From: a virus
IMG/VR virus record: IMGVR_UViG_3300030104_000578
Location: 1 to 35,108 of that record
DNA: 35,108 bases
Strand: one strand, 5' to 3'
The notes under the pieces were generated by a model that saw only the letters and a program-made list of their open reading frames with translations, was not told the DNA's origin and did not search any database. The translations under genes were made by a program, and so were the position numbers. This document shows positions 1 through 35,108 of this stretch, in pieces. Numbering within the stretch: position 1 is the first letter of the stretch; every line of letters begins with the position of its first letter.

Positions 1-356
1 TCACTGATGCCACCGTTGCCACCGTCACCGTTTCCGTCACCGTTTCCGTCACCGTTTCCGTCACCGTTGCCGTCGTTGTCGTCTGGACCCCCGCCTCCTG
101 AGTTGTCCTTACGACGATCGGGGGGCGCAAACTGCGGGTTCACTGGGTGGACTACTTGATTCGGCTTTATAGCGGACGGCTGCGGAGGCTGCTCTTCTCC
201 GATCGTCGTCGTGCATTGCTTGAAGTTCTTCCCTACGCGCTGATTGCATGAGGGAGACATCTGTACGCCCGTCTTCTTCTTCTTAGAGTCGCAGTCTCCG
301 CAATCACCCCAGCCACAATCGCATCCGCTCTTCTTTTTCTTTCCAACTCGCTTCAT
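1..356 (-). CDS. Partial hypothetical protein, Cys/Lys-rich N-terminus with GNGD repeats
   Basis: The frame opens with ATG at 356, overlapping the TGA of the upstream gene (TGATG), and stays open to the window edge, so the C-terminus is missing; 118 codons are visible. The N-terminus is basic and holds four clustered cysteines (KKKKSGCDCGWGDCGDCDSKKKK), followed by further cysteines, a Pro/Gln-rich linker and a run of Gly-Asn-Gly-Asp tetrapeptides encoded by a 12-bp tandem repeat. I do not recognise a family. The Cys cluster could bind metal, and the acidic DGNGDG run resembles calcium-loop sequence, but both are inference. In T7 order it sits where small lysis and packaging genes precede the large terminase. 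Confidence 0.7.
   Translation of the reverse strand, partial: MKRVGKKKKSGCDCGWGDCGDCDSKKKKTGVQMSPSCNQRVGKNFKQCTTTIGEEQPPQPSAIKPNQVVHPVNPQFAPPDRRKDNSGGGGPDDNDGNGDGNGDGNGDGNGDGGNGGIS
12..74. repeat. 12-bp tandem repeat inside the partial gene
   Basis: ACCGTTTCCGTC is repeated perfectly at 27-38, 39-50 and 51-62, followed by a copy with one mismatch at 63-74; related degenerate units lie at 12-26. On the coding strand it reads as Gly-Asp-Gly-Asn repeats, so copy number can change without breaking the frame. Confidence 0.9.
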
Positions 357-22364: not shown

Positions 22365-24153
22365 TGCTGTACTCCCCGGTCAACGGACACCTAAACCCTA
22401 GCTCCTCACCGGCCTGCTCCATTGCCCGGACAGCGGCTCTACCCGCAGCCTGAGCGTAGTCGTACCTAGCTTCTAGCTGGATTTCATCATGAATATGGGC
22501 GACTTGCTTGACCTTGTCAAGGTCTCCCATGTTCTCTGTCCTCAATATAGAGTGCAGCAAGCACGTCGCTTTCTTCATCGCAATCGACCCGGCTGACTGA
22601 AGCAGCAGGTTCAACGCGCTGTGCTTTGACCTGACCCTGAGGGTTCGGCCATCGATCGCTTTCAGTACCCCCAGCTTGTCCGCCCTGAACTCGACAGCGT
22701 CCTTCAGCTTCTTAAGCGCAGGCATTCGGTTCAAGAAGACGGTCTTCAGGTGACTCCCGTCACGGGCCGTTCCTCCCACGATCTTCCCAATGCGGGCCGC
22801 CCCCGCGCCATACAGAAGGGCGTACACGAAGACTTTCGCTTGGTCTCTGTTGTCCAGACCTGCCGCCTGCTTATTAATCTCATGGATATCGCCCTCAAGA
22901 ATCGCATCACGATACAGGCCATCGTCATATCGGAACGTGTAGTGAGCGAGACACCGAAGCTCTAGCCCACTCATATCTGCGCCGACCAACCTGTATCCTT
23001 CAGGAGCGCAGAACAAGCTGCGACACTCAAGACCCCAAGGAGCTGACACCCTAGGCACCTGCGCCACGTTCGGCTTGCTATGCGTACACCTAGTGGACAC
23101 GGCACCGCACGGATTGACGCGGCCATAGATTCGACCGTCCTTCTCCAGCTTGATCCACGCCTCTCGTCCCTCAGCCACTTGGCCCAGCCGCTTGCCCAGA
23201 AGCAAGTACTGGATCAGCGGCTTGCATTCAGGATATTCAAGACCTTTAAGAACCGTTTCATCGATCTTTGGGCGACCTTCTGGAGTGAAGTCTTCAGGCT
23301 CCCACCCATGCTTCTCGATGAGACCTTTGGCGATCTGGTCCCGAGAACCGGGGTTAAACGGTATGGTCTTGACGCGCCTTTCCCCGGCCAATAAACGAGA
23401 CCGGATCTTCGCGGGGCAATCCTTCTTCTTGTCATATTTCTCATCAGTCTCCGGGTCGTAGTAGTACAGGGGAGTCTTCATAGGGATGGTCTGTGGAGGG
23501 AACGCCGTCTTCAGTTCCTTCTGTACCTCGTCCTTGGCGGCCAGCAAGGATCCGTGCAGCTCCCTAGCTGCGTCTACGTTGAAACCGATCCCGTTTCTCT
23601 CTTGTTGAGAGATTATGGCCGCGAACTCGTGTTCCAACACAGTGGGGTTTTCAGGCACGTCCTCCGCCTGAATCTTGTTCCATAGAGCAAGAGTAACCCG
23701 AACATCTTGGACACAGTACTCGCCCATCTCATCCGTATACTCGTCCCAGCAGTTGTCCTGCTCACCGTAGTCACCCTTGTGCATCCCGAGCCTGTAGCCC
23801 CATGCTTTCAACGAGTGACGGCCAGCGAACTTCTTCGGGAAGTCAACGTTCTGCCAGTCAGTATTGGCTATGTCAGGCCAGACCATGCGAGACAGAACAA
23901 GCGTATCTCTAACGCAGCCCTCTGGCTCCCACTCAGGGTAGAGCCTCTGGATCGCACGTACGTCGAACTCCTGTATGTTGTGGCCGATAATGACATCAGC
24001 AAGCCGCAGCTCCTCAAGCCCTTCTTCGATCGTGACTAGACGTGGTTCGTCTCCGTTAGTCGAGAGCGCAACGCAGTGAATCTTCTTGAGACCCAATAAG
24101 GTCCGGAAGCACTTGATGGCGTTCGTCTCGATATCAAACACTACAGTGTGCAT
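22336..24153 (-). CDS. Family A DNA polymerase (gp5-like)
   Basis: A 605-residue replicative polymerase (T7 gp5 is 704). The 3'-5' exonuclease domain is complete: VVFDIETN (Asp7, Glu9), IIGHNIQEFD (Asp64) and EYCVQDVRV (about 146-153). Polymerase motif A is GADMSGLELR (about 391-400), motif B is RDQAKVFVYALLYG (about 436-449) and motif C is HIHDE (about 553-557). The residue matching E. coli Pol I position 762 is Tyr, about residue 444, as in T7. A palindrome copy lies 14 nt upstream of ATG 24153. The gene follows the primase-helicase and overlaps the homing endonuclease at its 3' end. Confidence 0.97.
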   Translation of the reverse strand: MHTVVFDIETNAIKCFRTLLGLKKIHCVALSTNGDEPRLVTIEEGLEELRLADVIIGHNIQEFDVRAIQRLYPEWEPEGCVRDTLVLSRMVWPDIANTDWQNVDFPKKFAGRHSLKAWGYRLGMHKGDYGEQDNCWDEYTDEMGEYCVQDVRVTLALWNKIQAEDVPENPTVLEHEFAAIISQQERNGIGFNVDAARELHGSLLAAKDEVQKELKTAFPPQTIPMKTPLYYYDPETDEKYDKKKDCPAKIRSRLLAGERRVKTIPFNPGSRDQIAKGLIEKHGWEPEDFTPEGRPKIDETVLKGLEYPECKPLIQYLLLGKRLGQVAEGREAWIKLEKDGRIYGRVNPCGAVSTRCTHSKPNVAQVPRVSAPWGLECRSLFCAPEGYRLVGADMSGLELRCLAHYTFRYDDGLYRDAILEGDIHEINKQAAGLDNRDQAKVFVYALLYGAGAARIGKIVGGTARDGSHLKTVFLNRMPALKKLKDAVEFRADKLGVLKAIDGRTLRVRSKHSALNLLLQSAGSIAMKKATCLLHSILRTENMGDLDKVKQVAHIHDEIQLEARYDYAQAAGRAAVRAMEQAGEELGFRCPLTGEYSIGSNWAETH

Positions 24154-24167
24154 GATGTCTTCTTTCT

Positions 24168-24182
24168 GTTGGGATTCCCAAC
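24168..24182 (-). promoter_or_regulatory. 15-bp palindrome copy I, before DNA polymerase
   Basis: Perfect GTTGGGAATCCCAAC on the minus strand, between the primase-helicase stop (24184) and the polymerase ATG (24153). The Shine-Dalgarno AGAAAGAAG follows it directly, with 14 nt from palindrome to start. This is the last copy before the late genes. Confidence 0.9.
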
Positions 24183-24183
24183 A

Positions 24184-25779
24184 CTAGGTAGTTGGCACTT
24201 CGATAACTTCAGGAGCGATCCACTCATTGAGACGGCCAGTGTCTCCACTGTACTCAAGGACGGTCGCCATGCCCGTGTCCCCAGCATACCGATTCTTCAG
24301 GACTCTGAGGGCCATCATGCGTGACGTGCTTTCGTCCTGCTGATCACGCTCACATCCGATCACTGCATCACTGAGCTGAGCAATCGCATGAGACCCACGG
24401 AGCTGGCTAAGGCTCGTCGATCCGCCTTCCTCATGCGCCCTACCGTCTGGCCTTCGGAGATGGGACACGAGTACGAGGTGGATGTTTGTTTCCTCCACGA
24501 GCGACCGCAGTTTCGTCATCGTGTTGTCGATGGTCCGGCGTTCGTCTCCTGACTCCAGCGCACTGACGACGATACTCAGGTGATCAAGGAACACGTACTT
24601 GCACTGCATGGCGCGGGCCATGTATCTCACACGTGTCAGCAGGTTAGCTGGATCGATCGAACCCCAGTGGTCGTACAGCACCATGTTGCCCGAGCCGACC
24701 GTAGCGTCAAACGCTTCCTTCTTCTGCTCCATCGTGACACCCTGCTGAGTCCAGAGATGCGGCGGGATGTTCATCCGAAGTCCCATGATGAACTCGCTCG
24801 TCTTCTTGACTGACTCTTCCAGTGCGATGTAGCCCACCTTCTGGTTCATGTCCATCAAGTAGTACGCCAGCTCACGGGCAACGCTTGACTTGCCGATGCC
24901 TGTGCCAGCCGTCAGCGTCACCAGCTCGCCTCCTCGCATACCGAACAGCTTGTCATTGAGCGAGGGCCACGGGTACGGGATCGACGGGACCTGAGTGTCG
25001 TCAGTGATTACGTCCCAAAGCTCCTCGCCCGGTACGACACCATCAGGTCTGAAAGACTTCGCGCTGTATACGGCATCGATAAGCTCCTTGACCTTACCGT
25101 CTACGACGCAATCGTTAGCGTCCTTCAATGGCATCCCTGTAACGATCTTGGCCTTGCCGGGGCTGAGCTGCTGAGCAGCCTCAAGAGCGGCAGCCCTGCC
25201 CTGCGTATCCTGATCAAAGCACAGGACGACACTGTCGAACGACTCAAGCCAGTCAATGTTCTGGGCGATGACCCGAGCAGCCGACTTAGCTCCGTTCGGT
25301 ACGGAGACGACAGGCCACGTCAGGTTAAAGACCTGAGATACGGAAAGCGCATCAAGCTCACCTTCAGTGATGGTCACCATCTTGCCTGACTCTCGCCAGA
25401 GATGTGAGCCGAACAGGGACGCTTTCTTGGGGTCACCCAGCCACTTGAACGTCTTGTCAACGAACCTCAGCTTCTGGGCAACAAGGTTGCCTGACCCGTC
25501 CCTGTAGTTCGCTATCTGAACCGGGCGACCTTCGTAGGTCCCGATGCCGTAGTCGAACTTCTTGCACGTGTCCTCGGATATGCCCCGCTTCTGCAACGGA
25601 GCCACTTCGTAGTCGATTAAACCAGTCACTTTATGAGTCTCTTTCTGTTCTACCGGGTTTCCATCCCCGTGTTCGTAGTAATCACAACCAAAGCAGTACG
25701 CATGATTGTCCGTGTATCTCGCAAGATTATCTTTCGAGCCACATCTTGGACAAGGCTCGTGTCTTAGGAACTCGCTCAA
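24184..25779 (-). CDS. Primase-helicase (gp4-like)
   Basis: The likely start is TTG 25779, with GGAGG nine nt upstream, giving 531 residues (T7 gp4 is 566); the longer frame upstream is Arg/Trp-rich shadow sequence. Domains: zinc-binding CPRCGSKDN...YCFGC (Cys10, 13, 29, 32); TOPRIM primase with TEGELDALS (Glu about 139) and CFDQDTQG (Asp about 189, 191); then a RecA-like helicase with Walker A GTGIGKSS (about 292-299), Walker B-like YVFLDHLSIV and a GSHAIAQLSD region. It primes and unwinds at the fork with the gp5-like polymerase. The 5' end overlaps the RusA-like gene by 53 nt. Confidence 0.95.
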   Translation of the reverse strand: MSEFLRHEPCPRCGSKDNLARYTDNHAYCFGCDYYEHGDGNPVEQKETHKVTGLIDYEVAPLQKRGISEDTCKKFDYGIGTYEGRPVQIANYRDGSGNLVAQKLRFVDKTFKWLGDPKKASLFGSHLWRESGKMVTITEGELDALSVSQVFNLTWPVVSVPNGAKSAARVIAQNIDWLESFDSVVLCFDQDTQGRAAALEAAQQLSPGKAKIVTGMPLKDANDCVVDGKVKELIDAVYSAKSFRPDGVVPGEELWDVITDDTQVPSIPYPWPSLNDKLFGMRGGELVTLTAGTGIGKSSVARELAYYLMDMNQKVGYIALEESVKKTSEFIMGLRMNIPPHLWTQQGVTMEQKKEAFDATVGSGNMVLYDHWGSIDPANLLTRVRYMARAMQCKYVFLDHLSIVVSALESGDERRTIDNTMTKLRSLVEETNIHLVLVSHLRRPDGRAHEEGGSTSLSQLRGSHAIAQLSDAVIGCERDQQDESTSRMMALRVLKNRYAGDTGMATVLEYSGDTGRLNEWIAPEVIEVPTT

Positions 25780-26167
25780 CTCTAGCCACCTCCAATGTGA
25801 TGCCCGCCTCCTCTGAAAACTCCTTCGCCATTGAGGCCCAGACCAACTGGTCATCGTCCTCCCATACGACTCCATTCAAAACGTCGAGAGTCTTGAAGTA
25901 GTTGTCAACGTCCCCATTGGGGGTAGCTCGCTTTGACGTACGGGGCTTCACGACGTGAAACACCGCAGACACGGCAAGACTACCCTCCAAAGGGAACGAT
26001 CGAGGTAGCTTCGCATCCGCAAACAGATCCGCAGCGGTCTTGATGAAAGCCGTATATCGCTTTCCGTAGTAACACCGGCCCGTCCTAGTAAACCTAGGTC
26101 TGGACGCAGGGACGGGGTCAATCGGAATGAATACGGACCATCTGTGAGAGCCTCGGAAGGCTTTCAC
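25727..26167 (-). CDS. RusA-like Holliday junction resolvase
   Basis: GTG 26167, with GAGG upstream and 8 nt after the SSB stop, gives 146 residues, matching RusA-family length (about 120-150). The motifs PVPASRPRFTRTGRCYY near the N-terminus and GDVDNYFKTLDVLNGVVWED then DDQLVWASMAKEF in the middle supply the conserved D-x-D-N-x-x-K and D-D acidic residues used for metal-dependent cleavage. It occupies the place where T7 has endonuclease I (gp3), an unrelated resolvase. Its expected job is to resolve branched replication and recombination intermediates before packaging. The in-frame ATG at 26221 lies within the SSB gene and is less likely. Confidence 0.85.
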   Translation of the reverse strand: MKAFRGSHRWSVFIPIDPVPASRPRFTRTGRCYYGKRYTAFIKTAADLFADAKLPRSFPLEGSLAVSAVFHVVKPRTSKRATPNGDVDNYFKTLDVLNGVVWEDDDQLVWASMAKEFSEEAGITLEVARVERVPKTRALSKMWLER

Positions 26168-26174
26168 TTTGACC

Positions 26175-26780
26175 TCAGAAGTCGAAGTCCTCTTCGACGC
26201 TGGTGCTGCTCGTCTGCTCATTAGCTACAAAGCCCTCGACGACATCGAAGCCCCAGTCATCGCCCACTGACGACCCGGACTCACGAAGTTCGACTACTTG
26301 GACAACCTTCAGGCGCAAGGAGATCCCTGCACCAACCATCGGACTGACGTACGGAACGACTTCACACCCGACAGAGATACGGCTGCCCTGTCCAACCTCG
26401 ACAGACGTTGTATCGATCGGAGCCTTCTTGCTGTCCATGACAATCGGACGCTGCTCCCACCTGTCGTCACCGTTGACACCGATGGCCTTCAGCTTGAACT
26501 TGAAGACCCAGTTGCCGGTCTCGTTGCCGCCATCATCGACCTCTTCAACGAACGGAAGATCAGCTCGCTTCTTGAGGTTCGGCTTGGTCCGCTTCACGTT
26601 CTCGATGTGATCTTTCATCACGTCTTCGATCTGCTTCTTGACAGGCTCGGCATCCGCAGCCGACAGGATCAGGTCAACCTTGTACACGCCGTCCTTGTCG
26701 AACTTAGTGTCAGGCTTTGAGAGGCGCGGCCATCGTGCCGTACCAATCGGGGTGGTCAGTCTCGTGTGCTTACTAGGCAT
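26175..26780 (-). CDS. Single-stranded DNA-binding protein (gp2.5-like)
   Basis: A 201-residue protein (T7 gp2.5 is 232) with an OB-fold-like core; TTPIGTARWPRLSKPDTKFD then GVYKVDL and the YVSPMVGAGISLRLKVVQVV segment are typical of the marine T7-like gp2.5 group. The C-terminus is strongly acidic and ends in Phe (SVEEDFDF), the feature that docks gp2.5 to polymerase and helicase. It directly follows the RNA polymerase gene with an AGGAGA Shine-Dalgarno in an 8-nt gap. Confidence 0.92.
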   Translation of the reverse strand: MPSKHTRLTTPIGTARWPRLSKPDTKFDKDGVYKVDLILSAADAEPVKKQIEDVMKDHIENVKRTKPNLKKRADLPFVEEVDDGGNETGNWVFKFKLKAIGVNGDDRWEQRPIVMDSKKAPIDTTSVEVGQGSRISVGCEVVPYVSPMVGAGISLRLKVVQVVELRESGSSVGDDWGFDVVEGFVANEQTSSTSVEEDFDF

Positions 26781-26788
26781 GAGATCTC

Positions 26789-29194
26789 CTAACTGAAGTA
26801 GTACTTCGATTCTAGAACCTTGGAAACATCGAGTGTACCGACCTCCGGAGTCTCTGGCAAGACGACTCCAGAAGGCAGTAGAGCGGAGAACTGGTTCGTT
26901 AAGTCCTCCATTACGTTCTCTTTGAATATGTCAACAGTAGCCCCACGCACACACTCATTGATGGTGTCAAGGTCACATGCGGTCGTGCTGATGTTGTCGT
27001 GGACAGTCATGAAAGACTTCACATCTCTGTCCAATGCTTTGTTCACAGTAAGGCCAAGTATGCCGCCAAGGCCATCCAAGGAATGGACGAGGTTCGCGCA
27101 GATTCCGTTGATCGTCTTGCGCCTCGACTGCTTGCCGTTTGGTATCCGGAGCCGGTGCTGTCGCATCGTACCGCCGACCATCGTCTTGATGCTGTGCTTG
27201 CCCATGTTCTCGTAATGCATCTTGACAGGGAAGCCCAACGGAGTAACCCAGCGAGGCGTGATGCCGTTGTCAACGAACACCGTAGCACAGGCACGAAGCC
27301 AGTCCATGACGATCCTTGCGGACGCAACGACTTCACCAATCGATTCCCATATAAGCTCAGCAAGATAGTTGCAGGGCGCATAAGTCTCCTCTCCAAACGG
27401 GTTCGTCTTCTTCGGGTCCTTCAGTTGTTCGTAGAACCACTCAGCAGTGTACGTACGGCAACTGTAGAACACGGAGCCGTACACGAGAGTCATCGTCTGA
27501 CGTTTCGTCGTCTTGCGGTTGATCCCGAAAGCGAGCCACTTCGACGCATAAGGACTAGCGTTGTCTCGCTCAAGTTTCTCGATGACAAGATCTGCAACAA
27601 CTTCGTACGGGTCCTGAGGTGCGTCACCCGGCAGCACGTTCGTCGCTCTTGCGCCCACCGTATCTCGAAGCATCAACGTCAGAATCTGTAGTCCTTGAGT
27701 TGTCGCATCAACGCCGCACGGCAACGTCGTGACGAAGCTAGAGCCGTGCAGATGGACACGGTGAATCTCGATACACGCACTCAGGAACTCCCAAGGATCG
27801 TCAGCATCTGCCCATGACATTTCCTTGTTGTTGGGATTCCCAACAGCCTTGATCATGTTCAGGTTCGATTCAGCCCAAGCAATCCGACTTTCGTACGGGT
27901 CCTTGTCGAGACCCCACGATGAAGCGGCTTTGATGTACAGCCATTTGAGACCGCTGTCGTCAATCTTCTTGCCGTCCTTGAATCTCAGAAGACTCTTGAC
28001 GTAGCTCGGCCCTTGGGGCTGCAAGAAGTAAGGCACCGGATATCCGCGACCTCTGAAGTCCAGAGAGTGTGGGTAGTACAGGTCACTGCTGGCGAACTTG
28101 TTGGACAGGTTCAGAACCTTCATGACTTGCAGACGCTTGGACTTCTTACGTTCGTTCTCGAAGTGCTGGCGAGCCGCCGCCTTCCTCCACGCACGTCTCG
28201 CTTCCTCGTTCGTCGCAATGTCGGTCGGCTTGTTCGGGATCGGGTCGTCTTCCATGGACGGCACACCGCCTACGGGAAGATCTTTCTCCCAGCAGAACTT
28301 GACCCAGTCATATACTTCGTGATTGATTCTGTACCCCGTCCTTTGCAGGCCGTTGACGGCACGGTACACGTGTGTCATGTCGCAGCTACCGATGTCTTCG
28401 AGGTACGACTTGTCTCTCGTCTTGACCAGCGCACGGCGACCGAAGCACGTGGCTTGGTAGCCACCGAGATACGGGTTGTTCCAATCGACGGGTCGCTCCA
28501 CCATAGGAAGCCAGACCGGAGCAAGGGAATCCCTGTACTCATGGGAGTCCTTCATCCACTTCAGCAGGTCCTCTGTCGGGCGGATCATCGTGTACGACTT
28601 ACCCTTGGGATCTGCTTTCGTGACGATGTCGATGATGCCCGTGGCCTGCCTCATAAGCTCAATGCAGGTCAGCCCCACGGACGCTGCGTCCTTCCGATTC
28701 CACTGGGGCAGGACAAGCTCGTGGTAATTCGCCGTGTTGTTGATGAACTTGGACTTCGTCTTGTCGCTCTTGTATTTGTCAAGCACACGGTTGATCTGTT
28801 GCCACAGGGCAGGATTGTCTTCCTTGATCGTCCGGAACTTCAGCTCGTCTTCAAGAGTTCGGGCCAGCGTCAACGCCGTACTCGTGATCTTGCGGTCCAC
28901 GGATACGCAATCAAGTACGCACTTCGAGGTCAGAGCAGCGACGACGGGAGCGGGTAGCTGTTCAATGTACTGTAATGCGCGATGCCTACGGCCCGGAGCC
29001 TGCTCAGCCTTAGCTTTCCAACTGTTGATCTCAGATGTCAGCTTATCAATCGACTCTGCAAGTAAGTATTGACCTACTGCCGTGGTTGATTCCAGCTTCG
29101 TTTCCTTGGCTCTCTTGATCTTATGGTAATACCGCTGGCGGCCCATCTCGATCATCTCTTCTTCAAGCCGTCCTTGGCTCAGCTTCTTACTCAC
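26789..29194 (-). CDS. Single-subunit DNA-directed RNA polymerase (gp1-like)
   Basis: GTG 29194, with GGGAGGGG four nt upstream, gives 801 residues (T7 RNAP is 883); the frame extends upstream without stop but only as shadow of the sigma-like gene. Catalytic residues are all present: Asp496 in LPCGVDATTQGLQ, Lys564 and Tyr572 in TTKRQTMTLVYGS, and the HD of TVHDNIS in motif C, with the usual C-terminal LESKYYFS ending like the FAFA end of T7. Residues 451-455 (VGNPN) are encoded by one of the nine palindromes. It should transcribe middle and late genes. The specificity-loop region reads TMRQHRLRIPNGKQSRRKTI, unlike T7, so its promoter cannot be guessed from T7. Confidence 0.97.
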   Translation of the reverse strand: MSKKLSQGRLEEEMIEMGRQRYYHKIKRAKETKLESTTAVGQYLLAESIDKLTSEINSWKAKAEQAPGRRHRALQYIEQLPAPVVAALTSKCVLDCVSVDRKITSTALTLARTLEDELKFRTIKEDNPALWQQINRVLDKYKSDKTKSKFINNTANYHELVLPQWNRKDAASVGLTCIELMRQATGIIDIVTKADPKGKSYTMIRPTEDLLKWMKDSHEYRDSLAPVWLPMVERPVDWNNPYLGGYQATCFGRRALVKTRDKSYLEDIGSCDMTHVYRAVNGLQRTGYRINHEVYDWVKFCWEKDLPVGGVPSMEDDPIPNKPTDIATNEEARRAWRKAAARQHFENERKKSKRLQVMKVLNLSNKFASSDLYYPHSLDFRGRGYPVPYFLQPQGPSYVKSLLRFKDGKKIDDSGLKWLYIKAASSWGLDKDPYESRIAWAESNLNMIKAVGNPNNKEMSWADADDPWEFLSACIEIHRVHLHGSSFVTTLPCGVDATTQGLQILTLMLRDTVGARATNVLPGDAPQDPYEVVADLVIEKLERDNASPYASKWLAFGINRKTTKRQTMTLVYGSVFYSCRTYTAEWFYEQLKDPKKTNPFGEETYAPCNYLAELIWESIGEVVASARIVMDWLRACATVFVDNGITPRWVTPLGFPVKMHYENMGKHSIKTMVGGTMRQHRLRIPNGKQSRRKTINGICANLVHSLDGLGGILGLTVNKALDRDVKSFMTVHDNISTTACDLDTINECVRGATVDIFKENVMEDLTNQFSALLPSGVVLPETPEVGTLDVSKVLESKYYFS
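27830..27844 (-). promoter_or_regulatory. 15-bp palindrome copy H, inside the RNA polymerase gene
   Basis: Perfect GTTGGGAATCCCAAC read in frame as Val-Gly-Asn-Pro-Asn, residues 451-455 of the polymerase. In T7 RNAP the equivalent stretch reads AKSPLEN just before WWAEQDSP, so the palindrome occupies a variable loop beside a conserved block. Confidence 0.9.
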
Positions 29195-29723
29195 GAGTCC
29201 CCTCCCATTTCGCTTTGCACATTCTGAGACGCTGACACGCCCTTGACTCACTGTACCCATGATGGACACCGAGCTGCTTGAGCGTCATACCCCTTGACTT
29301 CATGATCAGGAACCACTGGTCATCGACGGGCAACTCACTGAACCCCGGAAGATCTGGCACTTCAACATCTGCGGGAGCTGCCGGGTCGAAGTTCCAATCA
29401 GGCCACTGAAATACGGGACGAGTAAAGGACCGAGTGTTGTACTTTCCTTTATCCTTGTCGTATTTGCGGATTGTCAGGATAGAGTTGTCCTTGCAGTATT
29501 TCGCATGTACGAAGCTGAACAAGCTGGTACGCAAGAAGGCTGAGATCGGCCCCCTGTTGTAATCGTATTTAGGCATCAGCTTCTCCAGTGTAAGTAAATA
29601 CGCTTCACTCAGCAGGTCATTGAACGTCCATAGCATGAACGACTTACGGCGAACGCCGCACCACAGCTTCACTTCGTCGTACAGGTTAAGAAGTTCGGCG
29701 CGACTCAGGTTCAAGTTTAGCAA
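29187..29723 (-). CDS. Sigma-factor-like protein (regions 2 and 4)
   Basis: Up to 178 residues. Residues about 33-75 (FNDLLSEAYLLTLEKLMPKY, DYNRGPISAFLRTSLFSFVH) follow the sigma-70 region 2 pattern, and residues about 131-172 (LPVDDQWFLIMKSRGMTLKQ, LGVHHGYSESRACQRLRM) follow the region 4 helix-turn-helix. A Pro/Asp-rich linker separates them, as in ECF sigma factors. The start is uncertain: TTG 29723 lies within the integrase 3' end and lacks a clear Shine-Dalgarno; GTG or ATG codons further in are possible. It ends 8 nt inside the RNA polymerase gene. It may redirect host RNA polymerase or be an anti-sigma/decoy; both are inference. Confidence 0.65.
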   Translation of the reverse strand: MLNLNLSRAELLNLYDEVKLWCGVRRKSFMLWTFNDLLSEAYLLTLEKLMPKYDYNRGPISAFLRTSLFSFVHAKYCKDNSILTIRKYDKDKGKYNTRSFTRPVFQWPDWNFDPAAPADVEVPDLPGFSELPVDDQWFLIMKSRGMTLKQLGVHHGYSESRACQRLRMCKAKWEGTRE

Positions 29724-30537
29724 TCGCAGATGTCAGGCTTGCAGGGGTCAGGTGGCTATACCTGAGGGTCGTCTTCAGGCTGTTATGACCAGCAAGCTCT
29801 TTGACAGCGGCGAGAGGGACTCCACGTTGGACGAGGCGAGAACAGAACGTATGACGGCACGTATGGAGAAGCGCACCCTCAAACGGGTGGACTACCCTGA
29901 ACGCTTTGATCTTATCATCGATCTGCTGATTAGTGAAGTCGAACGGCGGCTCACCTGTGCGGCACCATGACCTCCGGAGTCTCAGGATCTCGGCAGCACG
30001 GGCCGTCAACGGAATCGTACGCGGACGCTCCGTCTTCAGTTTCTGCGGGTCGGAAAGCGTGACAGTATTGCATATCGTGTCAACGTCGTCCCACAGCAGG
30101 CTGAGAGCCTCGCCCCTACGCATACCGGTGTCCATCAGAAACAGGAACAGGTCCCTGAGGTCGTGGTCGTCCATCGCATCAGACAGCTCTTGTTCCTCTT
30201 CCTGACTGTAGAACTTCAGACGGCCCGCAGATTCCTTCTGTTTCGGTATCTCAGGCTTCTGAGTGACAACGCCGTGCCTGACCCCGTATTTCAGGATCTT
30301 ACTGACCACGGCCAACTTGCGGTTGATCGTTGCCCCCGTATTGTTCTTCATCCTGAGATGGACAACGAAGTTCTCGATGTCAAACGACGTGATGTCCGCC
30401 AGTTTCTTCTTGTCGCCAAAGTAATCGACGACCTCTTCCATGCGATACTCGGTGGTGCGTCGAGACTTCTGCTGTGACCACTCCATCTTGTGGACGTAGT
30501 CAGCCATATCCCCGACTGTTGTAGGTGCGTTTGTCAT
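29686..30537 (-). CDS. int: Tyrosine recombinase / phage integrase
   Basis: A 283-residue integrase with a SAM-like N-terminal core-binding domain (residues about 5-95) and a complete catalytic domain: Arg140 in TGMRRGEALSLLW, Lys168, His225-x-x-Arg228 in LHTCRHTF, His251 in LAGHNSLKTT and the nucleophile Tyr260 in LRYSHL. It should catalyse site-specific integration, implying a temperate or latent ability, as known for some T7-like cyanophages with int just upstream of the RNA polymerase. Shine-Dalgarno AAAGG precedes ATG 30537, downstream of a conspicuous inverted repeat. The 3' end overlaps the sigma-like gene by 38 nt. Confidence 0.95.
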   Translation of the reverse strand: MTNAPTTVGDMADYVHKMEWSQQKSRRTTEYRMEEVVDYFGDKKKLADITSFDIENFVVHLRMKNNTGATINRKLAVVSKILKYGVRHGVVTQKPEIPKQKESAGRLKFYSQEEEQELSDAMDDHDLRDLFLFLMDTGMRRGEALSLLWDDVDTICNTVTLSDPQKLKTERPRTIPLTARAAEILRLRRSWCRTGEPPFDFTNQQIDDKIKAFRVVHPFEGALLHTCRHTFCSRLVQRGVPLAAVKELAGHNSLKTTLRYSHLTPASLTSAIAKLEPESRRTS

Positions 30538-30560
30538 GTTATGCCTTTCGTAAGAACGCG

Positions 30561-30614
30561 GGTCCCGCCTAGTACTCCGACATCAACCGGAGGCTGTTGT
30601 TACTAGACGGGACC
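30561..30614. repeat. Imperfect inverted repeat upstream of the integrase gene
   Basis: GGTCCCGCCTAGTA (30561-30574) pairs with TACTAGACGGGACC (30601-30614) with one mismatch that becomes a wobble pair in the minus-strand RNA. A second, inner stem CTCCG (30575-30579) / CGGAG (30588-30592) encloses an 8-nt loop. No U-run follows on the transcript, so it is not a standard terminator. It fills most of the 92-bp gap between the DUF932-like gene and int. Candidate attP core, recombinase arm site or leader structure. Confidence 0.7.
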
Positions 30615-30629
30615 ACGCGACTTGGAGGA

Positions 30630-31487
30630 TCAGAAGTCAGCAGCGATCAACGCAGGCTCAGTGTTGGGATTCCCAACGGAGAACCTGTCGTCGATGATGT
30701 CCGCCAGCCGTGCCATGCGACTGGACTGAGTCATCAGTGACGCGCCTCTGTCGTTGCTCGTGAATGCGTTCTCAAGGGACCAGACGTTGCGATCCTTGAA
30801 CTCGGGATGCTCAGGCTCTTCCCAGTGTTCAAGCACACGCATCGTAGCCGAGTTGCCCATCACGTTGGCCTTCGCAGCCTCCATGATGACGTACCTCGCA
30901 TCGTCGTCGGAACACTCGATGTTCTTCCATCGCTCGATGCGGGCAGTTTCAGCCTCTGCGGCAGGCAGGAGATGCGAGACGGCGTTGTCGATCAGCTCGT
31001 AGACATGCTCGAACTGACCCTCACGGTCCCTGTCGATGTTCTTCGTGTGCTTGCGGCGGAACTGAGCTTCTGCGCCCATGAACATACCGTTGCTGCACAC
31101 AGATACGCGACGACCAAGGCCTCCACCGGCTGACTTCGTCATGTCGTAGCTGTTGACGAACCCAGCTTCCCACGTCATCTCTGACGTACTGGGCAGGCCG
31201 GGGTGGGCGATGCCGTAAAGGCTGATGAACCGACCCCACTCACCCTGATCCTTGATCTTCGGGTTCTTCGTGGTCTTGGCGCGGTAGTGCGTCGGATCAG
31301 AGAGCTGAAACCCGTGACGACTGAACGCCTGCTCGATCATGTCCACGTACGTCTCATGAGGCAGGGGCCTCCACGTGTCCGGGCCGAGCTGAGGAACGCG
31401 AATCTTGCGAATCGTGTTCATGTCCACCCGCTCACCCCAGTTCTTCGGATCGAACGGGGTAGGGGCCGTGGGTGCGAGAGTAACCAT
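30630..31487 (-). CDS. DUF932-like phage/plasmid protein
   Basis: ATG 31487 with TTGGAGA upstream gives 285 residues. The central block GFVNSYDMTKSAGGGLGRRV then SVCSNGMFMGAEAQFRRKHT and KNIDRD is the recognisable DUF932 pattern (…S.D.S…V.C.N……RKHT…). DUF932 proteins are common on phages and plasmids, often early genes, with no settled biochemical function. The last 15 residues begin with VGNPN (271-275), encoded by palindrome copy G, so the C-terminus appears built over the regulatory element. The longer frame upstream to 31673 is shadow of the gene above. Confidence 0.75.
   Translation of the reverse strand: MVTLAPTAPTPFDPKNWGERVDMNTIRKIRVPQLGPDTWRPLPHETYVDMIEQAFSRHGFQLSDPTHYRAKTTKNPKIKDQGEWGRFISLYGIAHPGLPSTSEMTWEAGFVNSYDMTKSAGGGLGRRVSVCSNGMFMGAEAQFRRKHTKNIDRDREGQFEHVYELIDNAVSHLLPAAEAETARIERWKNIECSDDDARYVIMEAAKANVMGNSATMRVLEHWEEPEHPEFKDRNVWSLENAFTSNDRGASLMTQSSRMARLADIIDDRFSVGNPNTEPALIAADF
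30663..30677 (-). promoter_or_regulatory. 15-bp palindrome copy G, at the 3' end of the DUF932-like gene
   Basis: Perfect GTTGGGAATCCCAAC, in frame as VGNPN (residues 271-275 of 285) and 125 nt before the integrase ATG. It is the first copy upstream of int. Confidence 0.9.
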
Positions 31488-31540
31488 TTGAAATCTCCAA
31501 GTCTCTGCGAACTCAAGGGTGCCGCAGTAACCCGTGACGT

Positions 31541-31555
31541 GTTGGGAATCCCAAC
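31541..31555 (-). promoter_or_regulatory. 15-bp palindrome copy F, reversed centre
   Basis: On the minus strand this copy reads GTTGGGATTCCCAAC, the only one with the opposite central base. It lies 2 nt after the stop of the ribbon-helix-helix-like gene (31558) and 53 nt before the DUF932-like ATG, and is noncoding. Confidence 0.9.
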
Positions 31556-31557
31556 GA

Positions 31558-31773
31558 TTAGTGCAGCTTGTTCTTATCGTCCTGATAAGACTTGAAGCCA
31601 CGCCTGACAAGGTCCACGAGAACGTCGTGTTCGTCCACGTGCGTCTTCGGGAGACCCATCGCATCATGAACATTCTCGATGTTCTGACGGATGACGGAAA
31701 CCTGCTGTCTGATCTCAGGAGACAGACGGAGGTAGAGACCCTGACGGGACATTTTTCGAGTGCGAGAATCCAT
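31558..31773 (-). CDS. Ribbon-helix-helix-like small protein, candidate regulator
   Basis: ATG 31773 with GAAGGGG upstream gives 71 residues. The pattern RQGLYLRLSPEIRQQVSVIR, then a short insert, then DEHDVLVDLVRRGFKSY, matches an N-terminal beta strand followed by two helices as in MetJ/Arc/CopG-type DNA-binding proteins, whose dimers bind palindromic operators. It is preceded by its own TTGACA/TAAAAT promoter candidate and a terminator-like hairpin, and followed at once by palindrome copy F. This makes it a good candidate to bind the 15-bp palindromes, but the fold is judged by eye. Confidence 0.6.
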   Translation of the reverse strand: MDSRTRKMSRQGLYLRLSPEIRQQVSVIRQNIENVHDAMGLPKTHVDEHDVLVDLVRRGFKSYQDDKNKLH

Positions 31774-31797
31774 TCGTTTACCCCTTCTAAGGTAAGT

Positions 31798-31832
31798 AAA
31801 AGAGCGACACTTGTTCACTGCGGCAGTCGCTC
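31798..31832 (-). terminator. Terminator or attenuator hairpin before the RHH-like gene
   Basis: On the minus strand GAGCGAC (31832-31826) pairs with GTCGCTC (31808-31802), with a 17-nt loop that can form an inner ACTG/CAGT stem, followed by TTTT (31801-31798) and more Ts. It lies between the candidate promoter at 31873-31900 and the gene starting at 31773, so it may end early transcripts or act as an attenuator. Confidence 0.65.
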
Positions 31833-31856
31833 ACCTCCGCCACGAAAGGTCTGATG

Positions 31857-32021
31857 TCAACTCAAGTCATCTATTTTATCAGCCTTGAGTACTGTGTCAA
31901 CAAAGTCGATCTCTGCGTCGGAAAGCATGTGGACATGTTCTGGATTCTCCTTCAGGGAACGTGCGAAACGCTTAGCTGAATCGAGATTGCCCATGCCGAC
32001 ATAGCTTTCGACTAGGATCAT
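31857..32021 (-). CDS. Small hypothetical protein
   Basis: A 54-residue acidic helical protein, MILVESYVGMGNLDSAKRFA then RSLKENPEHVHMLSDAEIDF. ATG 32021 overlaps the upstream TGA (ATGA), indicating coupling; an AAGGAGG at 32052-32058 upstream would suit a CTG start at 32045, which is less likely. No family recognised. The gene's 3' third contains a sigma70-type promoter candidate for the next gene. Confidence 0.6.
   Translation of the reverse strand: MILVESYVGMGNLDSAKRFARSLKENPEHVHMLSDAEIDFVDTVLKADKIDDLS
31873..31900 (-). promoter_or_regulatory. Candidate sigma70 promoter for the RHH-like gene
   Basis: TTGACA (31900-31895), 16-bp spacer, TAAAAT (31878-31873) on the minus strand, inside the small gene at 31857-32021. 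Match is 6/6 and 5/6 to the consensus with the same spacer as the early promoter. It would give the RHH-like gene a promoter independent of the early operon. Confidence 0.55.
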
Positions 32022-32656
32022 TTGGTTCGTGAATATGATACGCAGGATGAGCCTCCTTGCTGGTCTATGAGACCCAAGAACCCGGTCTCCTTGTCATAGT
32101 GATACCGAGGCTCGTCGTCCGAGTGACAAACCTCCCAATCGTCAGCCATCGTCCATGCCATGAACTTAGCTTCGGCGTATTTGATCGCGTCATCCTTGTC
32201 CGCGAACCTGATCAACGTATTCGGGTAACGCTGACCGTCCACAAAGAACACGGGGTAATAGCTGACCGCATCGGACACGGACGTGACCGCTTTCTTGGCA
32301 GCACGTGCCGCGTACTCGTCGTCCACTTTGATGTAACTCATTGTCGTCTCCTTATTCTCGCGCTCCCAACGCTGGAGCATCGTCGTCAATGTTGATCTAG
32401 GTATACATAGAAACGCTGCTATGTCCACGCCGGACATGAATGGCAGCAAGTACTCGTTGGCGATGACGGCTAATCTCATCCGCGCATCGATGGCTGCCGT
32501 CTTTCTCGAATCAAGCATGTCGTCCAAAGTCAGGCCGAGGTTCTTGGCGATCTCCATGACCGAGTCACTGACCCGGCTGCGTAACTCGGCAGGAGTCGGA
32601 GCGATGTCATCGCCAAGGAACCATCGGCCCTCGTTTGGATCGTCAGTTACGAACAA
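32018..32656 (-). CDS. Helix-turn-helix protein with DnaA-domain-IV/TrpR-like segment; internal start
   Basis: TTG 32656 with AAGGAGG six nt upstream gives 212 residues and overlaps the upstream gene by 14 nt; the frame further upstream runs through palindrome copy E. Residues about 52-100 (RKTAAIDARMRLAVIANEYL, LPFMSGVDIAAFLCIPRSTL, TTMLQRWER) resemble the replication-initiator/TrpR-like helical DNA-binding fold, with a helix-turn-helix at about 76-97. At codon 106 an in-frame ATG (32341) is preceded by an ideal AAGGAG (32353-32348), so a 107-residue C-terminal protein may also be made. The C-terminal part has no recognised family. Candidate regulator or replication initiator. Confidence 0.6.
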   Translation of the reverse strand: MFVTDDPNEGRWFLGDDIAPTPAELRSRVSDSVMEIAKNLGLTLDDMLDSRKTAAIDARMRLAVIANEYLLPFMSGVDIAAFLCIPRSTLTTMLQRWERENKETTMSYIKVDDEYAARAAKKAVTSVSDAVSYYPVFFVDGQRYPNTLIRFADKDDAIKYAEAKFMAWTMADDWEVCHSDDEPRYHYDKETGFLGLIDQQGGSSCVSYSRTK

Positions 32657-33395
32657 GCTCGGCCTCCTTGTTGGGATTCCCAACGGCATAACTGTTGGCG
32701 GCGTTGCCATGGACGGTGATTGCGATGCCGGGTACGACTCTGGGCTTGTGACGCATCGCACCTGCACACAGGCCACAGTCAGCGCACGTGACACGGCGGC
32801 CCATCTCCGCTGACGATGGACAGACTAACTCCTGACGTGTCGGCTCCTGACCCTTGGGCATGACACGGAACGTGCGATAGCCGAGGGCCTGAGCATCGAG
32901 GACATCATCGTGAGTCTCGCAGGATGCCATGCATAGATCGGAGATGTCAGGACAATCACGCCACTGATGCGTATACCCCGTGAACGTCTTGACATTGGCG
33001 ATCAATGAACGCCAGACGGACGCAGGGACAGCCGCCGGATCTCCGTACGCACCGAGCCGTACCTTGCGACCTGACACGATCTCGCCAGCCTCGTCAGGAT
33101 CGACGGACTCGTAGTTACCCTTCTGGAATGACCGCCAGACAGACGCAGGACCCATGATGTTGACGTAGCACGTACGCTTGCCGCCGTTGGGCCTGTGGAT
33201 ACAGTCGCCACAGATCGCGTAGTCATCGCCAGACTTCAGAGCCTCACTCGGGTGCGAGTCACGCACAAGGATCCAAGTCTGGAGCATGTCGCCCGTCTTC
33301 GGATTGCTGGAACGCTTGTTGAGACCAGTAAGGATCGCAACGATCGGAGTCACGCCGTCACCGGGAAGATGACTGGGGCCGTCATAGATAATCAT
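32643..33395 (-). CDS. DUF7227-like conserved phage protein
   Basis: ATG 33395 with GAAAGGA upstream gives 250 residues. It has a recognisable conserved phage pattern: GLNKRSSNPKTGDMLQTWIL, GDDYAICGDCIHRPN, TCYVNIMGPASVWRSFQKGN, VRLGAYGDPAAVP, TGYTHQWR and a C-terminal CPSSAEMGRRVTCADCGLC. Paired C-x-x-C motifs suggest zinc binding. The family is widespread in phages and plasmids and has no known function. The last residues VGNPNKEAELVRN include VGNPN (238-242) from palindrome copy E. A 32-codon ORF overlaps its start and may couple translation. Confidence 0.75.
   Translation of the reverse strand: MIIYDGPSHLPGDGVTPIVAILTGLNKRSSNPKTGDMLQTWILVRDSHPSEALKSGDDYAICGDCIHRPNGGKRTCYVNIMGPASVWRSFQKGNYESVDPDEAGEIVSGRKVRLGAYGDPAAVPASVWRSLIANVKTFTGYTHQWRDCPDISDLCMASCETHDDVLDAQALGYRTFRVMPKGQEPTRQELVCPSSAEMGRRVTCADCGLCAGAMRHKPRVVPGIAITVHGNAANSYAVGNPNKEAELVRN
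32670..32684 (-). promoter_or_regulatory. 15-bp palindrome copy E, before the HTH gene
   Basis: Perfect GTTGGGAATCCCAAC at the 3' end of the DUF7227-like gene (in frame as VGNPN) and 13 nt before the TTG start of the HTH gene. An AAGGAGG Shine-Dalgarno follows the palindrome directly. Confidence 0.9.
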
Positions 33396-33480
33396 GGTCA
33401 GTATCCTTTCGTGTGAAATGGCAAAGGCTTGAGGAGGTGGGTAGTTTCTCAGGGTCGGCACTAGCCTGTGGGCTAGACAT
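33382..33480 (-). CDS. Possible 32-codon leader peptide
   Basis: ATG 33480 is preceded by AGGAGG (33491-33486) at five-nt spacing, the best Shine-Dalgarno in the neighbourhood. The frame reads MSSPQASADPEKLPTSSSLC and ends at TGA 33382, overlapping the first codons of the DUF7227-like gene. A CTAGCC/GGCTAG hairpin (33461-33476) lies in its early codons. It may be a translated leader coupling expression of the downstream gene. No family; coding status rests on the ribosome-binding site and overlap. Confidence 0.4.
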   Translation of the reverse strand: MSSPQASADPEKLPTSSSLCHFTRKDTDHDYL

Positions 33481-33557
33481 GTCTGCCTCCTACACTCTCC
33501 TCATTTACGATGCCGTCGCACCGCGCCTCTGCCCCTGCTTGCAAGGCAGGATGTCCG

Positions 33558-33737
33558 TTAGTCGTTCTCCTCAACGGGAGGTAAAGGCGTCAGCCGACCA
33601 AGATGGTCAGGGGAAGAGCTGAGGCCCGTGTAGATGATGAGCTGTCCGTCGTTGTCTTCTCCGATCTCCCAAATGGGAGACCCGAGCATGTCGGAAACAG
33701 CCTTGCAGAGTTCTTCCTTAGTCAGTGCCATTGGCAT
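33558..33737 (-). CDS. Small hypothetical protein
   Basis: ATG 33737 with GGAGG six nt upstream gives 59 residues, MPMALTKEELCKAVSDMLGS then PIWEIGEDNDGQLIIYTGL, ending in an acidic EEND. It overlaps the 3' end of the upstream gene by 20 nt. The LTKEEL…I.ED..GQ..IYTGL pattern looks like a compact alpha-beta protein of the type found in many phages, but I cannot name a family. Confidence 0.65.
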   Translation of the reverse strand: MPMALTKEELCKAVSDMLGSPIWEIGEDNDGQLIIYTGLSSSPDHLGRLTPLPPVEEND

Positions 33738-34218
33738 TGGAGTCCTCCAGATCGATTGGTTCAGAGTTCAGCCAGTCACGGTACACGGCTGCGCCATCGA
33801 CGTACGTGTCACCCTGATGGAAGTGGATGTGAACGTCGGGCCGATCATGGTGATAATCGATGTGGCTGAGGATCGAAGCGCGGGACATCGGTTCTCGAAC
33901 GTGGTTGTGGACATACGTCCAGCCTGACACCCCGACATTACGGAAGTGCCAGAGGTCTCGACGCTTCGGGCTGATGATCGCGTCCTCGTTGTACGAGAAG
34001 ATCGAGATGTGAGTGTAGATGTCAATGTTGAGCATCGGTCGCTCCATTCTGTTGGGATTCCCAACGCTTGCTTGTGCGCCGGGATCGATAGCGTTGATGA
34101 GATCAGCGATCAGACGGGCAGCCCCGCTGACCACCTTGGCGTTGTTGGTCTCAAAGCCTTCTTCATGGACGATCTCTGCGAGTCCGTCCTGAATCTTCTT
34201 CTGATCATTCGTATCCAT
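33718..34218 (-). CDS. Hypothetical protein with palindrome-encoded VGNPN between two parts
   Basis: ATG 34218, overlapping the upstream stop by 14 nt, gives 166 residues. The N-terminal part (1 to about 51) is helical (DGLAEIVHEEGF, AARLIADLINAID); then come VGNPN (52-56) and RMERP, and a second part starting MLNIDIYTHISIFSYNEDAI rich in His and Asp (HIDYHHDRPDVHIHFHQGD). The Met at codon 62 (34035) has its own GGAG six nt upstream, so the C-terminal 105 residues may be made separately. It could be two genes that read through each other because the palindrome has no stop in this frame. No family recognised; the His/Asp cluster might bind metal. Confidence 0.6.
   Translation of the reverse strand: MDTNDQKKIQDGLAEIVHEEGFETNNAKVVSGAARLIADLINAIDPGAQASVGNPNRMERPMLNIDIYTHISIFSYNEDAIISPKRRDLWHFRNVGVSGWTYVHNHVREPMSRASILSHIDYHHDRPDVHIHFHQGDTYVDGAAVYRDWLNSEPIDLEDSNANGTD
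34051..34065 (-). promoter_or_regulatory. 15-bp palindrome copy D, inside the 166-residue gene
   Basis: Perfect GTTGGGAATCCCAAC in frame as VGNPN (residues 52-56) and 15 nt before the internal ATG at 34035. The downstream flank AGAATGGA is shared with copy C. Confidence 0.9.
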
Positions 34219-34621
34219 TGTAGTTGCTCCAGTTATCGAGGGCAGTCTTGAACTTGTCGTGCGACGGATGCTTCTTCGTCCAGCCGTAGTCACACAAGAC
34301 CTCACAGGGTCGCTCGCCCGGAGTGAACATCGTACTGCCGACGTACGAGTCATCGAGAATCCAGACGATCGAGCAGTAATCGGCAGCGAATACGGCATCG
34401 ACAAGACCCTTGAGATTGTCTGGCGCGTTGTCTCCGATGCCGTCGCTGTCGTAGCAGACTTGGTCAGGCTTACAGCCCATCGACAGCAGTACGGTCAGGA
34501 CACTGGCGACAGCTTCGCGCCGTCCGAGGAGTCGAGAGTCACGCTCCAGCTTTTCGCAGATCGGACACTCGGTCTGAGTGATGTCGTATCGCCCGTGAAC
34601 CGGGCATGCGTGAGTCATCAT
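34205..34621 (-). CDS. Hypothetical protein with N-terminal zinc-ribbon-like motif
   Basis: A 138-residue protein starting MMTHACPVHGRYDITQTECP then ICEK, a C-x-x-H … C-x-x-C arrangement compatible with a small zinc ribbon. The remainder includes DSDGIGDNAPDNLKGLVDAV and a C-terminal Trp/Tyr-rich stretch. No family recognised. It starts 16 nt after palindrome copy C and ends overlapping the next gene, so it is part of the first operon from the early promoter, where T7-like phages keep host-takeover genes. Confidence 0.65.
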   Translation of the reverse strand: MMTHACPVHGRYDITQTECPICEKLERDSRLLGRREAVASVLTVLLSMGCKPDQVCYDSDGIGDNAPDNLKGLVDAVFAADYCSIVWILDDSYVGSTMFTPGERPCEVLCDYGWTKKHPSHDKFKTALDNWSNYNGYE

Positions 34622-34637
34622 GAGTCATTTCCATTCT

Positions 34638-34652
34638 GTTGGGATTCCCAAC
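34638..34652 (-). promoter_or_regulatory. 15-bp palindrome copy C, between the first two early genes
   Basis: Perfect GTTGGGAATCCCAAC two nt after the TAA of the first gene (34655) and 16 nt before ATG 34621. It takes up nearly half of the 33-nt intergenic gap and is noncoding. Confidence 0.9.
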
Positions 34653-34654
34653 GA

Positions 34655-34861
34655 TTAGCTGACAACCTTCGTGATATGTCCGTTCTGGACGACGACCGTA
34701 GCGTACCAGCGGTGAGCCTGCGGAAAGTGCGGACCTTCGCAGCAGTGTTGACCGTCTGAAACGTCTGACCCGAACGGACCCGGCTGATGACACGGGACAG
34801 GACCAGCGGCGACAGCTTCTTTCAAAGCCTTCTTCGTCTTGAAGTTTTCATTGGAGTACAT
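34655..34861 (-). CDS. First early gene: small conserved phage protein
   Basis: A 68-residue protein, FKTKKALKEAVAAGPVPCHQ then PGPFGSDVSDGQHCCEGPHF and PQAHRWYATVVVQNGHITKV. The 'KTKKALKEAVAAG … PGPFG … EGPH(F/Y)P..H.WYA…NG.I.KV' pattern is one I recall from short uncharacterised proteins of varied phages. Shine-Dalgarno AAAGG precedes ATG 34861, 22 nt after palindrome copy B and about 80 nt after the early promoter start. Probably an immediate-early protein made by host RNA polymerase; the function is unknown. Confidence 0.75.
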   Translation of the reverse strand: MYSNENFKTKKALKEAVAAGPVPCHQPGPFGSDVSDGQHCCEGPHFPQAHRWYATVVVQNGHITKVVS

Positions 34862-34883
34862 GATGAGTCAACCTTTCGTGAGT

Positions 34884-34898
34884 GTTGGGATTCCCAAC
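34884..34898 (-). promoter_or_regulatory. 15-bp palindrome copy B, in the early leader
   Basis: Perfect GTTGGGAATCCCAAC in the leader of the first early gene, about 50 bp downstream of the -10 box and 22 nt before ATG 34861. It is followed by ACTCACGAAAGG containing the Shine-Dalgarno. Confidence 0.9.
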
Positions 34899-34907
34899 GA
34901 TGTGAAC

Positions 34908-34941
34908 GTGGAACGTAGGCTCGTGCCTACCTCGATTCCAC
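34908..34941 (-). promoter_or_regulatory. 5' hairpin of the early transcript
   Basis: GTGGAA (34941-34936) pairs with TTCCAC (34913-34908), and inside it GTAGGC (34930-34925) pairs with GCCTAC (34920-34915) around an ACGA loop, with a small asymmetric bulge. Transcription from the early promoter should begin near 34941, placing this hairpin at the extreme 5' end, where such structures often protect mRNA. Confidence 0.65.
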
Positions 34942-34956
34942 ACGTATATTATACGT
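34942..34956. promoter_or_regulatory. Second palindrome, over the early -10 box
   Basis: ACGTATATTATACGT is a perfect 7-1-7 inverted repeat centred on the -10 element, with the same geometry as the dispersed palindrome but a different sequence. Part of the symmetry comes from TATAAT itself, so it may be an operator or coincidence. Confidence 0.5.
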
Positions 34957-34975
34957 TATTCGTTTCTTATGTCAA
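34948..34975 (-). promoter_or_regulatory. Early host sigma70 promoter
   Basis: Exact TTGACA (34975-34970), 16-bp spacer, exact TATAAT (34953-34948) on the minus strand, directed at the whole early operon. It is the strongest host-type promoter seen in the window and is where host RNA polymerase would start after DNA entry. The -10 box sits inside a perfect 15-bp palindrome, and 15-bp palindrome copies lie on both sides. Confidence 0.88.
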
Positions 34976-34986
34976 GTCTACAGTTT

Positions 34987-35001
34987 GTTGGGATTCCCAA
35001 C
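34987..35001 (-). promoter_or_regulatory. 15-bp palindrome copy A, upstream of the early promoter
   Basis: Perfect GTTGGGAATCCCAAC 11 bp upstream of the -35 box. It lies outside the transcript of that promoter, which favours a DNA-level function for the element. Confidence 0.9.
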
Positions 35002-35108
35002 GATGCTGGAACTTCTGACGCTGGAACAACTGACGGCGACTACTGTCACGCACTGTCACGATCGCGGAACTCCTGACGGCAGCCACTGTCACGTTTACTG
35101 TCACGCGG
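35002..35108. repeat. Noncoding end region with two interleaved short repeats
   Basis: ACTGTCACG occurs at 35042-35050, 35052-35060, 35085-35093 and 35097-35105. GGAACNNCTGACGGC occurs at 35023-35037 and 35066-35080, with a slightly shorter copy at 35008-35021. The pattern suggests a duplicated block of about 45 bp. No gene is visible. Its position at the early end recalls the short repeat arrays beside the terminal repeats of T7 DNA, but whether this is a true genome end cannot be judged from the window. Confidence 0.75.

Follow-up and report, generated by a model that had tools for sequence, protein, structure and literature searches.

The window, by which we mean the whole stretch of DNA analysed here, is a 35,108-base contig of an uncultured T7-like phage, kept as virus record IMGVR_UViG_3300030104_000578. 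Its genes lie on the minus strand, with the early end on the right side, and include RNA polymerase, SSB, RusA-like resolvase, primase/helicase, DNA polymerase and exonuclease. The contig belongs with the T7-like phages (Autographiviridae) by a match to phrog_414 (E 2.6e-216) together with SSB, primase/helicase, polymerase and exonuclease. A tyrosine integrase gene adjoins the RNA polymerase gene. Between these two lies a 178-aa gene (29187-29723) that had no PHROG match and a relative only in L022, one of the related loci described below; we take its product to resemble a small sigma factor. Neither a terminase nor a first early gene was seen within the window, and it contains no tRNA. No DNA-level relatives of the window were found among named phages. 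The nearest of these are distant, with one weak match to the DUF932-like protein, and the RNA polymerase was at most 35% identical to those of named phages among the matches listed. The features are collected in Table 1.

Table 1. Features of the early and replication region of the window
Feature	Coordinates	Strand	Basis
Putative operator copy A, upstream of the promoter, 11 bp from -35	34987..35001		exact copy
Sigma-70-type early promoter TTGACA-N16-TATAAT	34948..34975	-	consensus; placed like promoters of relatives
Single-copy palindrome over -10	34942..34956		not conserved
Putative operator copy B, 49 bp downstream of -10, 5' of the window's first gene	34884..34898		exact copy
Putative operator copy separating two small early genes and directly preceding a ribosome-binding site	34638..34652		exact copy
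Putative operator copy within an early open frame, reading VGNPN	34051..34065		exact copy
Putative operator copy within the phrog_2554 gene, at its 3' end	32670..32684		exact copy
Putative operator copy with flipped centre base, ahead of the DUF932-like gene	31541..31555		exact copy
DUF932-like gene, marker of the phage group	30630..31535	-	sequence match
Putative operator copy at the stop codon of the DUF932-like gene, the place conserved best	30663..30677		exact copy
Tyrosine integrase gene	29686..30537	-	sequence match
T7-type RNA polymerase gene	26789..29269	-	phrog_414 match
Putative operator copy within the coding sequence of the phage RNA polymerase	27830..27844		exact copy
Putative operator copy between the primase/helicase and DNA polymerase genes	24168..24182		exact copy

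At the early end we found an exact consensus promoter on the minus strand, with TTGACA at 34975-34970, TATAAT at 34953-34948, a spacer of 16 and all 12 of the 12 consensus bases. No other exact TTGACA-N15-19-TATAAT occurs in the window or among the relatives that were scanned. Copies A and B of one palindrome bracket it at a start-to-start distance of 103 bp. These results bore out the sequence-only reading, which had described the promoter, a copy 11 bp upstream of -35, another about 50 bp past -10 and a spacing of about 100 bp. The same reading had noted a second perfect 15-bp palindrome across the -10 box. This element, ACGTATATTATACGT (34942-34956), is real and differs from the A/B palindrome, but it is present in a single copy and was absent from the other loci save two pieces of the window itself. 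When the 88 bp separating B from A were shuffled 20,000 times, 96 of the shuffles contained some 7-1-7 palindrome, and we regard the one over -10 as probably incidental. Short direct repeats (ACTGTCACG and CTGACG units; 35010-35108) lie immediately upstream of copy A and are cut by the contig end.

The feature first described leaves out seven more exact copies beyond its coordinates. The palindrome GTTGGGA-W-TCCCAAC occurs at nine exact places in the window, from 24168 to 35001 (start positions as in Table 1). Counting both strands and allowing up to three mismatches, we found 18 matches against 0.74 expected and a maximum of 4 in 100 shuffles. All nine copies lie in early and replication genes, and the late-gene region left of 24168 has no copy. 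We considered mobile repeats and ruled them out, as the flanks of the copies are not common beyond a short stretch. A ribosome-binding stretch, GAATGGA, with a start codon follows the palindrome at 34638-34652 and 34051-34065 in the window, at 4145 in L029 and at 763 in L013, as if site and ribosome-binding stretch had been copied together. In the window, the base outside the palindrome was A at +1 in 9/9 copies and at -1 C in seven and T in two (Fisher 0.002, a pattern noticed post hoc); in L059, -1 was T in 12/12 and +1 was mixed. This asymmetry relative to transcription may come from the copying of sites with their flanks, or may mark a direction. A different contig of 61% G+C, L028, carries two copies of the window palindrome 99 bp apart (266-379), close to the beginning of a gene whose small product may be a helix-turn-helix protein.

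Next, we examined a group of 18 phages, made up of the window and 17 viral-contig loci found via the DUF932-like protein; two single contigs are in pieces, L045 with L058 and L054 with L059. At least three copies of one 15-, 16- or 18-bp palindrome were present in 16 of the 18, the exceptions being L047, with one copy in 1.6 kb, and L049, which has none and whose locus starts near the DUF932 gene start. Mismatch limits for the sites were not the same in every analysis. In shuffles of 19 sources, 20 each, there were never more than two copies of any palindrome, and six named relatives likewise had at most two in the stretch compared. We found 12 palindrome sequences across the group. Six are of odd length: GTTGGGA-W-TCCCAAC, TCGGAGA-S-TCTCCGA, TCGGGGA-W-TCCCCGA, CCGGGGA-S-TCCCCGG, GTAGCAA-S-TTGCTAC and CCGCACA-G-TGTGCGG. 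The further types are ATCTGGG-N4-CCCAGAT, TTCGGGTGATCACCCGAA, TCCGGGG-N4-CCCCGGA, TCTGTAG-YR-CTACAGA, TCTTGTCATGACAAGA and TCTGGGACGTCCCAGA.

The places of the sites are kept across these sequences. In 14 of the 18 phages a site lies at -80 to +20 relative to the DUF932 stop, in nine sequence types; L049-L052 lack it. Five loci (the window, L022, L044, L045 and L048) have another, of three types, at codon 447-452 of the RNA polymerase gene, the L022 sites being orthologous to those of the window; here the window reads VGNPN while L044, L045 and L048 read IGESP, with no insertion. Two sites stand just before the RNA polymerase start in L053-L057. The sites of L055 and L056 differ at all six places compared. 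In the alignment of these six places, 631 of 1065 flank columns were identical, a modest share, compared with 78 of 176 site columns; what makes the swap of site evident is that the new sequence is uniform, not that the flanks are nearly identical. The region L059 309-2405 carries ten site copies in 2.1 kb, some 45 bp apart, and is denser than other members.

We then related the sites to promoters. Among the 18 sources, consensus promoters (at least 10/12) numbered 35 on the early-gene strand and five on the other. A site started 1-80 bp after -10 in 13 of the 35 early-strand promoters, a figure that includes the window promoter twice, under two overlapping -10 readings, and corresponds to 12 distinct promoters; 1.48 were expected, and none of 5,000 circular shifts reached 13. 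In eight of the 12 distinct promoters with a site within 80 bp, the site lies 38-56 bp past -10 (about 50 in the window), which is rather far for blocking polymerase binding and suits a roadblock. The spacing of the pair, by comparison, varies from 103 bp in the window to 155 in L058, 230 in L044, 266 in L013 and 279 in L029. The kept element is the downstream site, not the pair. These findings bear on the proposal of the sequence-only reading that paired operators act by looping or occlusion at this one promoter. A and B do bracket the promoter, 103 bp apart; however, seven further copies lie elsewhere in the window and the pair spacing is not kept in relatives, and with nine copies, most far from the promoter and some intragenic, such a two-operator scheme is too narrow. 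We consider local looping or occlusion very unlikely as the account of the array. A further question is whether the sites act as DNA at all. T7 has RNase III sites, and the palindromes might in the same way form RNA hairpins between early genes for transcript processing or stability. The early transcript does take in most of them, and several directly precede ribosome-binding sites. The earlier argument for DNA binding, that copy A cannot be part of this promoter's transcript, does not help here, because L029, L044 and L058 have another promoter and a gene upstream, so that copy A could be transcribed from such an upstream promoter. The DNA-binding role draws its support instead from the centre base. 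In the odd-length types, the centre base pair was W in 30/30 sites of two types and S in 34/34 sites of four types, counts that take in orthologous sites of close relatives, and both orientations occur on the transcript strand in five of the six types. The centres in L051, L054 and L056 are fully palindromic, and there was no Rfam match in window 24000-35108. A centre base that is symmetric between strands argues for a duplex DNA target and against an RNA hairpin, and this sequence pattern points to a duplex-binding dimer and not a hairpin loop. We hold the hairpin explanation to be very improbable.

To look for a protein that might bind the sites, we turned to the early regions of the relatives. 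Nine of them reach far enough upstream (L013, L029, L044, L045 as L058, L046, L052, L054 as L059, L055 and L056). In each of the nine, the first long gene to appear among the first sites encodes a protein of 195-310 aa, which is rich in Lys and Ala in most cases; these proteins were recognised by position, that of L029 is cut by the contig end, and no comparable first gene was recognisable in L050 or L051. L029 overlaps the left end of the window by 74 bp at 97% identity, inside a tandem-repeat stretch, and continues beyond it with a site, a promoter, a second site and a gene start. From the overlap and this continuation, L029 is probably the missing part of the window phage or a close relative, and it probably carries the first early gene missing from the window contig. 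The 12-bp tandem repeat at the contig end (window 22-81), where L029 overlaps, probably explains the assembly break there.

The first-gene proteins are very different from one another. The first-gene stretches of L055 (7070-7975) and L056 (7039-8041) do not align, although the long blocks to either side of them are 82-87% identical. Among the 36 pairs of the nine proteins only L013/L029 was clearly homologous (hhalign P 8e-13); it is also the only pair with a common site type, so that the same-site test rests on that one pair. L054/L055 was marginal (P 0.027; BLAST E 0.001). No known family was matched by these proteins and no PDB sequence match was of use. The L029 protein found only itself as a homologue, that of L055 found only itself in 18 records, and those of L013 and L054 had no homologue in named phages. 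The AlphaFold models were weak (48.8 and 54.9). In the L054 model, residues around 34-84 form a helix-turn-helix-like core (block means roughly 60 to 78), and the best PDB matches of the model were the DNA-binding domains of ParB, KorB and Spo0J at E 0.086 or worse, with VIA Z of at most 6.2 (that of Spo0J), below the trust level for helical proteins; the L013 model gave no ParB/KorB-like structural match. A match of the L044 protein to a ParB PHROG (E 0.0024) was set aside because it falls in the Lys/Ala-rich part. The product of the first early gene, small, very variable and probably of helix-turn-helix type, is the most likely candidate for the site binder. Two other genes of the window were rejected in this role: an 86-aa ribbon-helix-helix-like gene (31558-31818), whose cluster has 5 of 21 sources, fewer than carry arrays, and a 258-aa gene with weak helix-turn-helix matches (32018-32794), with a relative only in L022. 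L052, a member without an integrase, has an early gene with a DnaA helix-turn-helix domain (9136-9465; Pfam E 4.2e-14), with relatives in L050 and L051.

The reading that we prefer, and think rather probable, is that the palindromes form an operator array over the whole early transcription unit for one phage-coded DNA-binding protein, which would repress in the manner of stoperators and whose specificity would have diversified in concert with its sites. The predicted binder is the first early gene product, encoded among the first sites in relatives. Once bound, it would regulate both the promoter of its own gene and the window's early promoter. Sitting about 45 bp past -10, and between and inside early genes including the phage RNA polymerase gene, it would halt host RNA polymerase in much the way that stoperators do in mycobacteriophages. 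Early genes would then not be expressed in a lysogen, nor from a superinfecting phage of the same type, which would amount to immunity. Over the group as a whole, changes in the specificity of the protein would have gone hand in hand with changes in all of its sites. More tentatively, and with some hesitation, we suggest that this uncultured T7-like clade may have a hypervariable immunity built on a regulator cassette of unknown family together with some ten operators at fixed places, partly in conserved genes such as that of the phage RNA polymerase. Cassette and operators would switch specificity jointly, giving about a dozen orthogonal regulator-operator sets with operators of 15, 16 and 18 bp.

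A plain role in lysogeny does not fit every member, since a tyrosine integrase was absent in 7 and present in 4 of 11 relatives and alignment by DUF932 or RNA polymerase found no prophages in sequenced genomes. Immunity or early shut-off is possible in members with and without an integrase. Alternatively, the same array and protein could act positively or as a lytic temporal switch (activation, antitermination or early shut-off) and not in immunity. Members without an integrase keep their arrays, L053-L057 have their two sites just before the RNA polymerase start, and a terminator-like hairpin with a T run can be read between those sites in the L055/L056 alignment (L055 11690-11768, L056 12072-12163). 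The intragenic and promoter-downstream sites, however, make an odd layout for activation, and we consider this alternative unlikely. The likeness of the L054 model to ParB, KorB and Spo0J domains would also suit centromere-like sites and a ParB-like protein that maintain an extrachromosomal prophage. This seems quite improbable: a ParA-type ATPase was found in none of 12 records, several of them fragments, the first-gene proteins had neither a G[EHNQ]RR motif (GERR-type) nor a Pfam ParB match, the L013 model lacks the likeness and the sites follow promoters. That the sites belong to a host regulator we hold to be extremely unlikely; the promoter is of host type, but the site type differs between phages that are 82-87% identical in long blocks, though these phages may not share a host.

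Operator arrays that span a genome and diversify with their repressor are, to our knowledge, known mainly from Cluster A mycobacteriophages, and titles and abstract openings in the literature on related systems, subscription journals being mostly outside this range, hold nothing on an array such as this one. The published outlines of the Cluster A (L5 type) stoperators describe many copies of one site genome-wide, in promoters and between genes, on which one repressor acts at initiation and elongation, with site sequence and repressor diverging together between phage groups (PMC6550527, PMC9283540). The nine exact copies of one site over the early genome of the window resemble this arrangement. 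Cluster A sites, in contrast, are asymmetric, 13 bp long and bound by a monomer, with an orientation tied to transcription, whereas the sites here are perfect 15-18-bp palindromes in a T7-like phage with a first-gene protein of no known family; their centre base flips, yet the outside base is asymmetric in some types. KorB of plasmid RK2 is outlined as a global repressor whose repeated operators lie both close to promoters and at a distance from them (PMC11790492), and the L054 model has a weak fold likeness to KorB/ParB DNA-binding domains. Unlike in the KorB system, no ParB N-terminal domain and no ParA were seen, and the sites are mostly downstream of promoters. By the tests made, the array is a member of neither system. 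LUZ100, the pelagiphages and ProddE, integrase-bearing T7-like phages that are the nearest isolates by RNA polymerase, share the integrase adjoining the RNA polymerase gene and carry MarR-like or CI-like regulators; in 12 records of our group, no MarR-like regulator passed the cut-off and none had a CI-type HTH_3 repressor, and the isolates (0/6) differ in lacking such an array over the stretch compared. If palindromic sites with an unrelated regulator do serve T7-like phages in this way, this would suggest that such arrays have more than one origin, would provide a means of silencing a T7-type early operon, and would supply about a dozen candidate regulator-operator pairs for asking how a repressor and ten sites change together.
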